NCBI RefSeq assembly: GCF_000319575.2
Contig: NC_021291.1
Coordinates: 1 to 64,000 of the forward strand
Length of the DNA stretch: 64,000 nt
Source of the DNA: Spiribacter salinus M19-40
GTDB taxonomy: Bacteria > Pseudomonadota > Gammaproteobacteria > Nitrococcales > Nitrococcaceae
Direction: 5' to 3'
Shown here: positions 12,349 through 33,022 of the stretch, piece after piece
Layout of the letters: every line of letters starts with the position of its first letter
Position numbering within the stretch: position 1 is the first letter of the stretch
Position numbers and translations under genes: made by a program
The notes under the pieces: generated by a model
The model's database searches: none
What the model saw: the letters and a program-made list of their open reading frames with translations, nothing else
Told to the model about the DNA's origin: nothing

Positions 12349-13410
12349 ATGATGAGAGAGCCCGTGAAAGACGCCACCCACGAAGTCCTCGACAACCTCA
12401 CCCGCGCAGTGGTCGTGGTCGATGCGCAGTGCCGTATCCAGCTGCTCAATGCGGCCGCAGAGACCCTGTTTCAGCTGAGCAGTCGTCAGGCCCTTGGCGA
12501 GACGCTCACGACGCTCTTTCCTGGTGTTGCCGTATTGAATGACGCGATTGGCCATGCACTCGACGAGGGCGCGAGCTATGCCGAGCGGGAGATCCGGATC
12601 CATCTCGGTGGCGAGCGTACCGCGACGGTCGATTGCGCCATCACCCCCCTACCTGAGACCCGGCTTTTGTTGGAGTTTGAGCAGATTGACCGGCATTTGC
12701 GCATTTCTCGGGAAAACCGCCTGATCGCCCAGAACCAGGCGGTTCGGGAACTGATTCGCGGTCTGGCCCACGAGATTAAAAATCCGCTGGGGGGTCTGCG
12801 TGGGGCCGCCCAATTGCTGGAGGCCGAGCTGGCCGAGCCCGAACACCGTGAATACACGCAGATCATCATTAACGAGGCGGACCGCCTGCGCACCCTGGTC
12901 AATGGCCTGTTGGGGCCGGAAAACCGGCCCGACCGGCAGCTGACCAATCTCCATGAGGTGCTCGAGCGTGTGCGTCACCTGGCGGTTGCCGAGGCGCCCG
13001 CGGGTGTCACGATCGCGCGGGATTATGATCCCAGTATCCCGAGCCTGCCCGCCGCTGGCGATCAGCTGATTCAGGCCTTGCTCAACCTGGTGCGCAATGC
13101 ATTGCAGGCCCTGGGTGATGAAGGGGAGATCACGATTCAGTCCCGCACGCAGCGGCGTTTTACGATCGGCCACAAACAGCACCGTCTCGTCGCGCGTATC
13201 GATATACGGGATAACGGCCCCGGTATCCCGCCATCCCTGCAGGACCAAATTTTCTACCCGATGGTGACCGGCCGCGCCGAGGGCAGCGGTATTGGTCTGC
13301 CGATGGCCCAAACCCTGGTGAACCAGCATGGCGGGCTGATCGAGTGCAGCAGCGAGCCCGGCTGCACGGTGTTCACCGTCTGGTTGCCCCTGGAGGAGTC
13401 TCATGGCTGA
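12349..13410 (+). CDS. ntrB: Nitrogen regulation histidine kinase NtrB (GlnL)
   Basis: NtrB phosphorylates NtrC under nitrogen limitation and dephosphorylates it when bound by PII. The product has an N-terminal PAS domain (about residues 10-115), a dimerisation domain with the phospho-acceptor His in GLAHEIKNPLGG (near residue 141), and an ATPase domain with NLVRNALQAL, DNGPGIPP and GSGIGLPMA. It is soluble, with no membrane segment. The start is uncertain: ATG 12349 (353 residues) or GTG 12364, both with weak ribosome sites; upstream frame to 12259 would include the operator. It overlaps ntrC by 8 bases. Confidence 0.95.
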   Translation: MMREPVKDATHEVLDNLTRAVVVVDAQCRIQLLNAAAETLFQLSSRQALGETLTTLFPGVAVLNDAIGHALDEGASYAEREIRIHLGGERTATVDCAITPLPETRLLLEFEQIDRHLRISRENRLIAQNQAVRELIRGLAHEIKNPLGGLRGAAQLLEAELAEPEHREYTQIIINEADRLRTLVNGLLGPENRPDRQLTNLHEVLERVRHLAVAEAPAGVTIARDYDPSIPSLPAAGDQLIQALLNLVRNALQALGDEGEITIQSRTQRRFTIGHKQHRLVARIDIRDNGPGIPPSLQDQIFYPMVTGRAEGSGIGLPMAQTLVNQHGGLIECSSEPGCTVFTVWLPLEESHG

Positions 13411-14800
13411 AACAACGAGCGTCTGGATTGTCGATGACGATCGCTCGATTCGCTGGGTGCTGAAAAAAGCCCTTGAGCGCGCTGGCATGGCGGCGGTGGA
13501 TTTTGAAACCGGTGAAGAGGCGCTGGCCGCGCTTGAGCGTGAAACCCCGGATGTCCTGATCACCGACATTCGCATGCCGCGGCTCGACGGGTTAACGCTG
13601 ATGCAGCGTTTTCATGCCCAGAATCCGGCGATGCCGGTGATCGTGATCACCGCCCATTCCGATCTGGATGCCGCGGTCTCCGCCTATGAAGGCGGTGCGT
13701 TCGAGTATCTCCCGAAACCCTTCGATGTTGAGGAGGCGGTCGAGCTGGTCCGACGTGCGGCGGCAGCGGCCCAAAGCAGCGCGCCGCCCGAGGCCCGTCG
13801 CGAGGACCTGCCCGAGATCATCGGTGAGGCACCGGCCATGCAGGAGGTGTTTCGGGCCATCGGCCGACTGTCGCGCTCGAACATCACGGTCTTGATTAAT
13901 GGCGAATCCGGCACCGGTAAAGAACTCGTCGCCGGCTCCTTGCACCGGCATAGCCCGCGCGCCGAAAAGCCGTTTATTGCCCTGAACATGGCGGCCATTC
14001 CCCGAGACCTGATGGAATCCGAGCTCTTTGGGCATGAAAAAGGCGCATTTACCGGCGCCCACCAGGTTCGTCGGGGCCGATTCGAGCAAGCCGATGGGGG
14101 CACGCTGTTTCTCGATGAAATCGGCGACATGCCGGCAGAACTGCAGACGCGCCTGCTGCGTGTGCTTGCCGATGGGGAGTTCTATCGCGTGGGGGCGCAT
14201 ACGCCGATGCGCGTCGATGTCCGCATCATTGCAGCGACCCACCAGAACCTTGAGCACCTCGTCGAGGAAGGCCGCTTTCGGGAAGACCTCTTCCATCGCC
14301 TGAATGTTATCCGCATCCATTGCCCGGCTTTGCGCGAGCGGCAGGCGGATATTCCGGCCCTCGCGGATCATTTCCTTCAGCGTGCCGCGCGGGAGCTGAA
14401 TGTCGAGCCCAAGCAGCTCACCCCGGATGTGCAGCAGCGTTTCCGGCAATTGCCCTGGCCGGGGAATGTGCGGGAGCTCGAGAACACCTGTCGCTGGTTA
14501 ACGGTGATGGCCAGCGGTCGAGACGTCCAAATGGATGACCTGCCGCAGGAGATCGCCCACGCCCAGCCCGAAGAGGAATCGGCGGTGGACTGGGAGAGCG
14601 CGCTGGCCCGATGGGCCGATCACAAGGCCGCGGGCCAGAGTGTGGGGGCATTGTCCGAGGCGCAGGAGCGGCTTGAGCGTATCCTGATCGAGGCGGCCCT
14701 GCGGCGCACGGGTGGCCGGCGCCAGGATGCCGCCCGTCTACTTGGCTGGGGCCGCAATACGCTCACACGAAAGATTCGGGATCTGCAGATGCAGGTATGA
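13403..14800 (+). CDS. ntrC: Nitrogen regulation response regulator NtrC (GlnG)
   Basis: NtrC is the sigma-54 enhancer-binding activator of nitrogen-limitation genes. The 465-residue protein has a receiver domain (DDD cluster near residue 11, phospho-Asp about 55 in LITDIRMP), an AAA+ domain with Walker A GESGTGKE and the sigma-54 contact loop GAFTGA, and a Fis-type helix-turn-helix at the C-terminus ([21 protein letters not shown]). The start ATG lies inside the end of ntrB with GGAG upstream. Three predicted target sites occur within 4 kb upstream of the gene. Confidence 0.98.
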
Positions 14801-29031: not shown

Positions 29032-29703
29032 ATGACCGATTCAAAACTTCAAACGGTGGAGGTTGGCCCGGCTGGAGCCAAGGCCAGTGTGCTCTGGCTG
29101 CACGGCCTGGGGGCCAGTGGGCACGACTTCGAGCCCATTGTCCCGGAGCTTGGTCTACCCGCGGACGCGCCGGTCCGGTTTGTCTTTCCGCATGCCCCGG
29201 AGCGGCCCGTTACGCTTAATGGCGGCATGGTGATGCCCGCGTGGTATGACATCTACGGACTGACCGCCGGCACCCCGCAGGACGAACAGGGCCTGGACGA
29301 GGCGGCCGGGTGGATCGCGGCGCTGATCGAGCGGGAGGCCGAACGGGGCGTACCGGCTGAACGGCTGGTGCTGGCCGGGTTCTCCCAGGGCGGTGCCGTC
29401 GCGTTGCACGCGGGGCTGCGCTTTGCTGGCGGGCTTGCCGGCATCATGGGCCTGTCCACGTATCTGCCGCTGGCAGATCACTTGTCCCAGGCGCGTGCGG
29501 CGGCCCACCGTGATACCCCGATTTTCCTTGCCCATGGCGAGTATGACGGGGTCCTGGGGATCGAGCTGGGCACGGCGTCGCGGGACGCGCTGGCGGGCCT
29601 TGGCTATCCCGTTGAATGGCACGCCTATCCCATGGAGCACCAGGTGTGCCTGGAAGAGATTCAGGCGATCGGCGTCTGGTTGCGACAGGTGCTGGCGCTT
29701 TAG
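29032..29703 (+). CDS. Alpha/beta-hydrolase carboxylesterase (acyl-protein thioesterase-like)
   Basis: The 223-residue cytoplasmic hydrolase matches the carboxylesterase 2/phospholipase family: [13 protein letters not shown], the nucleophile Ser in [10 protein letters not shown], Asp in AHGEYDGVL and His in PMEHQVC. Physiological substrates are not known. The ATG at 29032 follows TATGCT (29021-29026) by about five bases and has no ribosome site, so the message may be leaderless. A longer frame to 28924 crosses the divergent lptM start and is unlikely. Confidence 0.9.
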
Positions 29704-31094
29704 TCGCCGGCCAGTCGGGCGCGTGCGGCTGCCACCTGCTGATGGACCTGGGCGGGCGCGGTGCCGCCGAGGTGATCGCGGGCGGCCATTGAGCCGTCCA
29801 CCGTCAGCACCGCGTACACGTCGCTCGCAATATGCTCGCTGAAGCCCTGCAGGGTCTCCAGAGAGAGGTCTGACAAGTCCTCCCCGTGCTGGACGCCGTA
29901 GGCAACCGCTTCGCCAACAATCGCGTGAGCATCCCGAAAGGGCACACCCTTGCGGACCAGATAGTCCGCCAGGTCGGTGGCCGTGGCAAAGCCCGCCCGG
30001 GCGGCCTGCCGTGTCCGTTCACGATTGACGCTCAGGGCAGGCACCATGTCGCCGAATGCGCGCAGGCTGTCATGCAGCGCGTCCGCGGCATCAAACAACG
30101 GCTCCTTGTCTTCCTGATTGTCGCGGTTGTACGCGAGGGGCTGGCCTTTCATCAGGGTGAGCAGTGTGTTGAGGGCGCCATGGACGCGGGCGGATTTGCC
30201 ACGGACCAGTTCGGCGACATCCGGATTTTTCTTTTGCGGCATGATCGAGCTGCCGGTACAGAAGCGATCGGGTAGCTCAATGAAGCCGGTCAGCGGCGAA
30301 GCCCACAGGACGAGCTCTTCGGCCATCCGGGAGAGATGCGTCATTGTCAGCGCAGCCGCCGAGACAAACTCGATGGCAAAGTCGCGATCCGACACCGCAT
30401 CCAGGGAGTTGCGGGTGGGCGCCTCGAAACCCAGTTCTGCGCAGGTCTGCTCGCGGTCAATGGCGAAGGTGGTGCCCGCCAGGGCCGCCGAGCCCAGTGG
30501 CGACTGATTGACCCGCACCCGGGCGTCGGCAAGCCGCGCCTCGTCGCGCACCAGCATTTCGTACCAGGCCAGCATGTGGTGGCCAAAGCTCACCGGCTGA
30601 GCGACCTGCAGGTGGGTAAAGCCGGGCATGACGGTGTCGGCCTCGCGCTCGGCCAGATTCACCAGGCCCGCCTGAAAATGCCGCAGCAGGTGGGTCGCCT
30701 CATCGATCGCTTCCCGAAGCCACAGCCGCACGTCCGTCGCGATCTGGTCATTGCGTGAGCGGCCGGTATGCAAGCGCTTGCCGGCATCCCCGATGCGCGC
30801 GGTCAGGCGCGCTTCGATGTTCATGTGCACGTCTTCAAGGGCGGGGTCCCAGGGGAACTCGCCGGCCTCGATCTCGGCGGCAATCGCCGCCAGGCCGTCG
30901 ATGATGGCGGTCGCATCCGCTTCGCTGAGCACACCGCAGCGGGCGAGCATGCGGGCATGGGCCTGGGAGCCCCGGATGTCCTGCCGGTAGAGCCGCCGAT
31001 CGTAGTGTTCCGAGGCCGTGAAGGCCGCGACGAAGTCATCGGTTGCTTCGCTAAAGCGCCCGCCCCACATCCCTTTGCTGTCTGCCTTGCTCAT
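29700..31094 (-). CDS. argH: Argininosuccinate lyase
   Basis: ArgH splits argininosuccinate into arginine and fumarate. The 464-residue product has the fumarase/ASL signature [12 protein letters not shown] with the catalytic Ser, plus [16 protein letters not shown] at the N-terminus and [18 protein letters not shown]. The ATG at 31094 is preferred over a TTG one codon upstream. It is divergent from the LytTR regulator and hemC genes, the arrangement seen in Pseudomonas (argH / algZ-algR-hemC), and its stop overlaps that of the convergent esterase. Confidence 0.97.
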
Positions 31095-31274
31095 CAACGC
31101 GTTCCGACGTGTCTGCTCGATGCCGGCAGTATACCAGCCGGCCTGGCGTATCGCCGGATGCCGCGGGTGTGAACCGTTTGGCGTTTATTTGCGGCGCGCT
31201 TGCGCATATTAGGCGCCTCACGCCGCCGCCCGGCGGTTTGCATTCCACCGCTTTAGAACGAAAGAGGCCGATTG

Positions 31275-32012
31275 ATGAAGATTGTGATTGCCTGTAGCAA
31301 CGACGCGCTGCGTCACCGCCTTGCCCGACTGGTTGCGACGGGCCCGATGGGCCGGGTGACCGCGGTGCTCGACGAGCCTGAGGACGCTATCGAGCGCCAC
31401 CAGGCCGACCCCGCCGCCGTCATTTTGCTGGGCATGTTCGAAGAGGCCGACCTGCAGATCGCGCTGGCGCTAAGCCAGACACCGGTGCCCCCGGCGATTC
31501 TGCCGGCGACGTCATTGCAGGCGCCGGTCCTCAGCACCCTGGAAGAGGCTGGTATCGACCATATCCTTGACTATGTTCAGCCGGAGCGCCTGGCGGCGGC
31601 GCTGAATCAGGCCGAGCCGTTGACTCGGGGTCAGGTGGCCGCGCTACAGGGCGGCCGGCATGCCAGTCATCGCCGGCATATTCTCTGTCGGCGGCGGGCG
31701 GGCCTTGGTCTCATCCCCGTCAACGACGTGCGCTACTTCATGGCAGACCACAAATACGTCACCGTCCAGCATGATGACGGCGAGGACCTGATTGAGGACT
31801 CACTGTGTCAGCTCGAAGCGGAATTCGGCCCGCGCTTTCTGCGCGTACACCGCAGCGCCCTGGTGGCGCGTGACAGCCTGCGAGGCCTCGAAAAGGACCT
31901 CTACGGCCAGACCCACGCGCTGATTGACGGGATGGCGACCCGTGTTCCGGTCAGTCGGCGCCGGCTACCGGCCGTACGCCGCTGGCTACGCGAGGCGTCC
32001 ACCCCCAGCTGA
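31275..32012 (+). CDS. AlgR-like LytTR regulator with degenerate receiver domain
   Basis: The C-terminal half is a LytTR DNA-binding domain close to AlgR: FMADHKYVTVQHDDGE and RVHRSALVARDSL. The N-terminal half aligns with a receiver domain but has lost its chemistry: the acidic pair is Cys7-Ser8, the phospho-Asp position is Gly53 (in VILLGMFEEA), and the Lys-Pro switch is Asp-Tyr (near 99). It occupies the algR position before hemC, but the kinase gene algZ normally between argH and algR is absent. AAAGAGG precedes the ATG at 31275. It likely acts without phosphorylation; targets are unknown. Confidence 0.88.
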   Translation: MKIVIACSNDALRHRLARLVATGPMGRVTAVLDEPEDAIERHQADPAAVILLGMFEEADLQIALALSQTPVPPAILPATSLQAPVLSTLEEAGIDHILDYVQPERLAAALNQAEPLTRGQVAALQGGRHASHRRHILCRRRAGLGLIPVNDVRYFMADHKYVTVQHDDGEDLIEDSLCQLEAEFGPRFLRVHRSALVARDSLRGLEKDLYGQTHALIDGMATRVPVSRRRLPAVRRWLREASTPS

Positions 32013-32098
32013 ACGTTGGCCGGGCGGCGTCGGCACGGTATGGTTGCGGCAGATCCACTCGGGCCCGCCGCGGCCGCCGACCTAAACAGCACGATGCC

Positions 32099-33022
32099 AT
32101 GTCAATTGATCACCTGCGTATTGCGACGCGTCGCAGTCCCCTCGCGCTCTGGCAGGCCGAGCACGTCGCCGAGCGGCTGCGTCAGCACCACCCCGGGCTC
32201 CATGTCGAGTTGGTGGGCATGTCCACCCGTGGTGACGAGATCACCGACCGGCCGTTAATGGCCGTGGGTGGCAAGGCCTTGTTCGTCAAAGCTCTGGAAG
32301 AGGGCATGCTCGAAGGTCGCGCCGATATTGCCGTGCACTCCATGAAAGATGTGCCCGCCGTGGTGCCAGACGCCTTTCGTCTGCCGGTTATCCTCGATCG
32401 GGATGACCCCTGTGATGCCTTCATTTCCACGCACTATGCCGATGTCAGCGAGCTACCGGCCGGCGCTCGGGTCGGCACCGCGAGCCTGCGACGGGAATGC
32501 CAGTTACGGGAGCGCCGGCCCGATCTTCAAATCGAATCCCTGCGCGGTAATGTCCAGACACGCCTGGGCCGTCTCGAGTCGGGCGACTTTGATGCCATCG
32601 TGCTTGCGGCCTCGGGTTTGCGCCGCCTGGGCATGGCAGAGCGGATCACCCGCATCATGCCCCCGGCGGACAGCCTGCCGGCGGTCGGCCAGGGGGCGCT
32701 TGGCATCGAGTGCCGCGCGGGCGATGCCGAGGTCGAAGCCCTGATTACCGCGTTGGACGACCGCGACACCCATGACCGCGTCGCCGCAGAGCGCGCCGTT
32801 AACACCCGCCTGGAGGGCAGTTGTCATGTGCCGCTGGCCGCGTATGCGGAGCTGGCGGGCGATTCGCTGTGGCTGCGGGCCCTGGTCTCGAGCCGGGACG
32901 GGCAGCGGGTGCTTCGGGCCGAGGGCCGCGCACCGCGGGCCGAGGGACCGGCCCTGGGGCTCTCTCTGGCGGAAGATTTGCTGGCACGGGGCGCTGGCGA
33001 GATTCTGGCAGAAGTGCATTGA
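32099..33022 (+). CDS. hemC: Porphobilinogen deaminase
   Basis: HemC joins four porphobilinogens into hydroxymethylbilane. The 307-residue product begins with LRIATRRSPLALWQA and has VHSMKDVP, GTASLRRECQL and the Cys that carries the dipyrromethane cofactor in LEGSCHVPL. It is followed by hemD in a TTGA overlap, so hemC-hemD-hemX-hemY form one translationally coupled unit. Confidence 0.97.
   Translation: MSIDHLRIATRRSPLALWQAEHVAERLRQHHPGLHVELVGMSTRGDEITDRPLMAVGGKALFVKALEEGMLEGRADIAVHSMKDVPAVVPDAFRLPVILDRDDPCDAFISTHYADVSELPAGARVGTASLRRECQLRERRPDLQIESLRGNVQTRLGRLESGDFDAIVLAASGLRRLGMAERITRIMPPADSLPAVGQGALGIECRAGDAEVEALITALDDRDTHDRVAAERAVNTRLEGSCHVPLAAYAELAGDSLWLRALVSSRDGQRVLRAEGRAPRAEGPALGLSLAEDLLARGAGEILAEVH

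Follow-up and report, generated by a model that had tools for sequence, protein, structure and literature searches.

A predicted pseudo-receiver in the AlgR of Spiribacter, a genus with no AlgZ-type kinase match in 14 genomes

The window analyzed here is the first 64 kb (64,000 nucleotides) of the 1,739,487-base, single-contig genome of Spiribacter salinus M19-40, a member of a halophilic genus. It contains a gene for an AlgR-type regulator, and the features of this locus are the following (window coordinates).

29700 to 31094, minus strand: argH, argininosuccinate lyase (TIGR00838), divergent neighbor of algR
31128 to 31133, minus strand: TATACT, a candidate and likely the -10 element of the divergent argH promoter, judged from its conservation
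31168 to 31183, plus strand: conserved 16-base box TGTGAACCGTTTGGCG upstream of algR, common to 14 congeners
31205 to 31210, plus strand: CATATT, a -10-like hexamer 21 bp after the box
31275 to 32012, plus strand: algR, 245 amino acids, predicted pseudo-receiver and LytTR DNA-binding domain
31275 to 31622, plus strand: receiver-derived domain of algR, amino acids 1-116, active site lost in the alignment
31293 to 31298, plus strand: codons for Cys7 and Ser8, the canonical Asp-Asp pair
31431 to 31433, plus strand: codon for Gly53, the canonical phospho-Asp
31569 to 31571, plus strand: codon for Asp99, the canonical Lys (Asp or Glu in 12/14 congeners, His in 2/14)
31668 to 31994, plus strand: LytTR DNA-binding region, amino acids 132-240 (Pfam match at amino acids 146-238)
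32037 to 32049, plus strand: GGTATGGTTGCGG block in the algR-hemC gap after the algR stop, with small changes across congeners; its conservation hints that it is perhaps the hemC promoter
32099 to 33022, plus strand: hemC, hydroxymethylbilane synthase (TIGR00212), downstream of algR

The algR frame has an alternative start, TTG at 31272, in frame with the one given. The argH-algR-hemC neighborhood of Spiribacter is shared with Pseudomonas aeruginosa, in which we take this to be the gene order (in part from PMC8787478). By this gene order and a full-length alignment to canonical AlgR, the Spiribacter gene is classed as an AlgR orthologue. Here, "14 congeners" denotes the window protein and 13 others of the genus, from genomes of which 9/14 are at least 90% complete. 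The divergent argH and algR starts are 143-208 bases apart in 13 of the 14; in the exception, G015 (L013), argH lies ~1.1 kb from algR. A 326-codon frame on the opposite strand sits between these two genes in G015 and is absent from the other 13 congeners.

To read the receiver active site, we aligned the 14 congeners with 8 orthologues belonging to other genera of the family, plus 1 distant record. In all nine of the non-genus records, D7, D8, D53, T79, K99, and P100 were found at their positions. D7, D8, D53, and K99 are missing in 14/14 congeners, whereas they are intact in 8/8 family orthologues of other genera. A sequence-only reading of this gene had claimed that the acidic pair, the phospho-Asp, and the conserved Lys are all replaced, and the alignment bears this out directly, with Cys7, Ser8, Gly53, and Asp99 of the window protein at the canonical D7, D8, D53, and K99 positions. 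That reading had also asked whether the loss is clade-wide, and it is, occurring in 14/14 congeners and 0/8 other-genus orthologues. Because the pattern extends across the whole clade, sequencing error as the source of these losses is ruled out.

The replacements follow a pattern within the genus. Position 7 is Cys in 12 and Ser in 2 (G013 and G015) of the congeners, and position 53 is Gly in 12 and His in the same 2. Glu occupies position 8 in 11 (Ser in the window species, Ala in G014, and Arg in G017), and position 99 is Asp in 6, Glu in 6, and His in 2. Thus, in the same 12/14 congeners Cys7 and Gly53 are invariant and Lys99 has become Asp or Glu. The region between beta3 and alpha3 is two residues shorter than in canonical AlgR in 12 congeners, including the window species. 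Not every active-site residue is lost, since Thr79 is retained in 4/14 congeners, the window protein among them.

In Pfam searches, the LytTR domain (PF04397) was matched in 14/14 congeners, with an E-value of 3.7e-18 for the window protein. The Response_reg profile had no match to the window protein up to an E-value of 10, in a search whose HMMER filters drop most matches above 0.1, and matched 1/14 congeners (E-value 0.0021). Elsewhere, this profile scored 4.6e-25 or better in three canonical relatives and 8.6e-12 in G128, a class genome considered below. By these comparisons, the Spiribacter AlgR is of the pseudo-receiver (ALR) type, i.e. a receiver homolog that has no phospho-Asp.

The receiver fold may be retained. 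An AlphaFold2 model made with three sequences has fair confidence at residues 1-80 and low confidence beyond, the prediction of full-length AlgR being poor (pLDDT 55.5). The top PDB matches from Foldseek are mostly receiver domains, none of them below an E-value of 0.001. At canonical hydrophobic positions 84% of the genus residues are hydrophobic, compared with 26% at polar positions. The model and the hydrophobic pattern support, without proving, a retained receiver fold.

The second claim of the earlier reading was that the algZ gene expected between argH and algR is gone. In the window argH flanks algR directly, and a profile search of the whole genome with PF06580, the AlgZ-type kinase family, found no match; an algZ homolog elsewhere in the genome was looked for with the same profile and not found. 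Across the congeneric genomes (completeness of at least 90% in 9), the PF06580 search likewise gave 0/14 matches. In the other genomes of the family, a PF06580 match adjoins algR in 8 of 9, and the ninth, G007 (an assembly of ~660 contigs), yielded neither algR nor the kinase gene. Three genomes of another genus in the family (G003, G004, and G005) carry second LytTR frame pieces (L023, L024, L026, and L028), some with stops, ~0.7-1.7 kb from algR; these are perhaps a decaying duplicate.

We also considered another kinase of the window genome as the input to AlgR. This candidate was rejected on the grounds that PF06580 has no match there; input from another type of kinase, with the 11 PF02518 (HATPase_c) matches of this genome as candidates (a family that also includes non-kinases), is improbable, there being no Asp53 to phosphorylate. 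The profile searches of the window genome gave 9 receiver matches alongside these 11 HATPase_c matches. Kinase-receiver neighbors are found near 13 kb (window 13060-13750), and a further kinase-receiver pair is located just outside the window (C1:68946-69652, 68.9-69.7 kb). The S. salinus genome paper, in contrast, reports only two two-component systems (PMC3832224).

The association between AlgR and an AlgZ-type kinase was then followed across the class, in a sample of 369 genomes; AlgR is present in 221 of them at a cutoff of E 1e-30 or better. A PF06580 match is present somewhere in the genome in 218 of these 221; one of them, G338, is counted as kinase-bearing with a PF06580 score of only 6.8e-4 and its algR at a contig end, and one of the 227 genomes in the PF06580 tally falls below the cutoff. 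Nine further genomes have a PF06580 match and no AlgR match at E 1e-30 (G030, G056, G074, G161, G196, G201, G224, G230, and G369). The three AlgR genomes without a PF06580 match are the window genome, G179, and G128. As a further kinase-less case G179 was set aside, its AlgR being canonical and beginning 294 bases from a contig end. G128 is a 2.0-Mb single-contig genome in which argH lies directly beside algR and PF06580 has no match.

Receivers were read in 176 of the 219 class genomes that have AlgR, other than G000 and G001 (43 were left out); 12 of these 176, with scores no higher than 135 bits, are possible LytTR paralogs. The active site is canonical in 174/176, with D-D-D-T-K-P in 171 and E-D-D-T-K-P in 3, and the receiver of G206 (1/176) is cut before residue 59. 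The sole altered receiver among the 176 is that of G128 (L076), which has a Glu-Gln acidic pair and keeps Asp53, Thr79, and Lys99. None of the 173 readable receivers from genomes with PF06580 is damaged. As kinase-less Spiribacter and G128 are both altered and the 173 kinase-bearing receivers are intact, receiver loss tracks kinase loss; the chance of two altered cases among the 3 kinase-less of 176, calculated by hand, is 3/15400 (~2e-4). The receiver is damaged in each of the two lineages whose locus is well assembled and lacks algZ; these are two events only.

By its sequence, G128 is an independent and milder case of algZ absence with an altered receiver. It suggests that loss of the metal-binding pair can precede that of the phospho-Asp, and it is a possible half-way stage. 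The sequence-only reading had proposed that the loss of the kinase together with the phosphorylation site implies a switch to phosphate-independent control. The joint loss was upheld and extended, being clade-wide in Spiribacter with a second, milder case in G128; because it is seen twice independently, phosphate-independent control follows as a natural inference, which is the standing that this part of the proposal retains.

We asked how selection has acted on the two halves of the protein. Using the Nei-Gojobori method, mean dN/dS in the 12 main congeners is 0.28 for the receiver (65/66 pairs usable) and 0.12 for the LytTR domain (60/66), compared with 0.17 and 0.20, respectively, in the 8 canonical orthologues (28 pairs); these values are rough, as the median dS is ~1.0-1.3 and the unusable pairs have saturated dS. 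The genus is monophyletic in both the receiver tree and the LytTR tree, and the length of its subtree is 5.34 for the receiver versus 1.73 for the LytTR domain (1.92 versus 2.35 in the rest of the tree). The LytTR dN/dS of 0.12, the subtree length of 1.73, and the Pfam match in 14/14 congeners agree with the earlier statement that this domain stays well conserved. The LytTR domain is under strong constraint, and the receiver evolves faster, yet the gene is no pseudogene: its length is 244-249 amino acids in the congeners, the frame is intact in 14/14 of these small genomes, and together with the dN/dS values this rules out a pseudogene. A slower decay could be imagined, in which algR, having lost its kinase, is gradually disappearing and regulates nothing of note. 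The raised receiver dN/dS is what such decay would give, as is the receiver's rate of evolution within the genus, roughly threefold that of the LytTR domain. Set against the 14/14 intact frames, the near-constant length, the LytTR dN/dS of 0.12, a top pairwise receiver dN/dS of 0.60, and the conserved upstream box, we consider slow decay highly improbable.

One part of the receiver departs from this general relaxation. Helix alpha-1 has 7/13 invariant positions in the 12 main congeners compared with 4/13 in the canonical set (hypergeometric p 0.004, ~0.04 after correction for ten segments), and in no other receiver segment does the genus exceed the canonical set in invariant positions, its overall number being lower. 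In receivers, helix alpha-1 is the face that docks the kinase. Because this normally kinase-docking surface is conserved here, a fair guess is that it serves a surface role, in contact with another partner or in a dimer.

It is possible, although we think it unlikely, that the receiver is now its own sensor and takes the place of AlgZ, either with Cys7 as a redox switch or with a small molecule or protein partner bound at the remodeled pocket and helix alpha-1. Such a sensor would fit the joint invariance of Cys7 and Gly53 in 12/14 congeners with Lys99 changed to Asp or Glu in the same 12, the Cys7 invariance itself being consistent with redox or structural use, and the enrichment in helix alpha-1, for which the p of 0.004 is the value before correction for 10 segments. 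Precedents with a redox Cys or bound ligands (RitR, Hp1021, and ShkA) are described in a review (PMC12632262). However, G013 and G015 have Ser in place of Cys7 and His in place of Gly53, conservation is mostly lost outside beta-1/alpha-1, and much of the structure model, on which any judgment of a pocket would depend, is of low confidence. The related proposal that the inert receiver was rebuilt as an input domain, in which alpha-1 and Cys7, along with the altered charges (Asp53 to Gly, Lys99 to Asp/Glu), would sense a partner, a ligand, or redox state, strikes us as rather doubtful. If it were true, the rebuilding of a receiver after loss of its kinase would be a repeatable route, and G128 would stand at an early step of it.

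The region between argH and algR contains a conserved element, the box upstream of algR. The box has the consensus TGTGAACSNKTYSGCG over the 14 congeners, and a CAnnnT hexamer follows it after 21 bp in 13/14 genomes and after 22 bp in one. This spacing is fixed, whereas the start codon lies at a variable distance of 57 to 96 bp. Were the hexamer the -10 element, the box would span -49 to -34, where class II CRP sites, centered near -41.5, are located. The helix SREM(V/A)GRVL, which we take to resemble that of Vfr, is found in a CRP-family protein of 13/14 congeners (near 360 kb on C1 in G000), and the exception is a genome that is 74% complete. The left half of the box is TGTGA in 14/14, within a TGTGAAC that is invariant in 14/14, and the right half is TGGCG in most, CGGCG, or TCGCG; the box therefore departs from the TGTGA-N6-TCACA dyad of class II CRP/Vfr promoters, its right half deviating from TCACA. 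Measured against the Vfr consensus given in PMC8787478 (left half TGNGAWNY, right half TCACA), the left half of the window box fits, and the right half is unlike TCACA.

G008, of another genus and with algZ present, has a one-mismatch copy of the box that lies 22 bp from a CATGCT and precedes the probable start of algZ by ~55 bp, as counted by eye. The position of this copy before algZ suggests that the deletion of algZ left algR behind the algZ promoter. The other 7 family orthologues have weak box matches only, with 2-3 mismatches; the argH-algZ gap is readable in 3/8 canonical family genomes, and that of G001 holds a three-mismatch match. A search of 20 class genomes for a TGNGA site upstream of algZ with the spacing of the box was negative (14 of them gave an algZ start motif and 5 an argH). 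With weak matches in the family and none in these 20 genomes, the box as an ancient feature of AlgZR is unsupported.

In each of the 14 genomes an exact match to TGTGAACSNKTYSGCG is found only upstream of algR, the consensus having been drawn from those sites. One-mismatch matches number 31 over the 14 genomes compared with 21 for a reversed control pattern; the 16 of these 31 that were examined all fall in frames of 215-1005 codons without a stop, although in DNA rich in G+C such open frames are no proof of coding. A regulon reached through the box was rejected on these counts. A single exact site in each genome is equally compatible with a global regulator and with one dedicated to this locus.

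This distribution bears on the idea that AlgR governs its own abundance by binding the argH-algR box, strong sites elsewhere being few or absent. The one exact place per genome in 14 genomes and the 31 one-mismatch versus 21 reversed-control matches are in keeping with autoregulation, as is the finding that AlgR is the only LytTR protein in 13/14 congeneric genomes. The sole LytTR protein besides AlgR across these genomes is encoded in G010 (C1:950714-950956). Further, CCGTTTGGC inside the boxes of the window and G014 equals fimU-ABS1, an AlgR site of P. aeruginosa. However, this 9-mer occurs in just 2/14 boxes, and the TGTGAAC common to 14/14 is a CRP-type half-site that lies outside the AlgR consensus, leaving autoregulation an unlikely explanation.

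The reading that we lean toward, with modest confidence, is that AlgR of Spiribacter is an orphan, phosphate-independent regulator controlled mainly by its amount, with the receiver as a scaffold and the box as the likely control point. The loss of the partner sensor and of the switching site, with the DNA-binding half kept, indicates that AlgR is probably now controlled otherwise. In this history the kinase of an ancestral AlgZ-AlgR pair would have disappeared in a single event at the root of the genus, and the deletion of algZ would have placed algR behind the promoter region that formerly served algZ. The receiver, no longer phosphorylated, would have lost its active site and stayed a folded scaffold for dimerization or partner docking, and the LytTR domain would have kept its DNA-binding job. 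AlgR would bind DNA in the form without phosphate only, and its output would be set mainly by the quantity made. The activator-type box, at a predicted class II CRP position and with one Vfr half-site, is the likely control point, the activator being presumably of this family. As to its targets, the S. salinus genome paper reports few regulators and no motility (PMC3832224), which lowers the odds of a pilus programme. The analysis gave no sign that hemC is a target.

The Spiribacter protein resembles AlgR of the P. aeruginosa AlgZR (FimS-AlgR) system in its LytTR output and receiver-derived N-terminal half. Unlike that system, it has no PF06580 kinase match (14 genomes) and no phosphorylation site. 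In P. aeruginosa, AlgR acts without AlgZ in alginate production, according to PMC8787478. Like the Vfr/CRP-activated algZ promoter of P. aeruginosa, the Spiribacter locus has an activator-type site between argH and the alg genes, with one half-site matched, and a Vfr-like protein is present in 13/14 congeners. It differs from that promoter in that the TCACA half is unmatched, there is one site, and the site is predicted to drive algR directly.

Orphan regulators with a pseudo-receiver are a known kind. Like the ALR regulators RitR, Hp1021, and FrzS, Spiribacter AlgR is an orphan and has no phospho-Asp, its phosphate independence being predicted from sequence. Unlike them, it has a LytTR output, and its loss follows kinase loss genus-wide, with a second, partial case. 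In the open-access literature we found no description of an orphan pseudo-receiver in an AlgR/LytTR setting; the words LytTR and AlgR are absent from the main texts of PMC12632262 and PMC4395418. A 2025 review calls the mechanisms of bacterial pseudo-receivers a mystery and their functional convergence not clear (PMC12632262). In the present case one regulator can be traced from the intact pair of most class genomes with AlgR, through G128 as a possible half-way stage, to a fully inert receiver in a cultivated organism for which very few regulators are reported. Because of this series from intact through G128 to inert, the order of kinase loss and receiver loss, and what replaced phosphorylation, would be directly testable.
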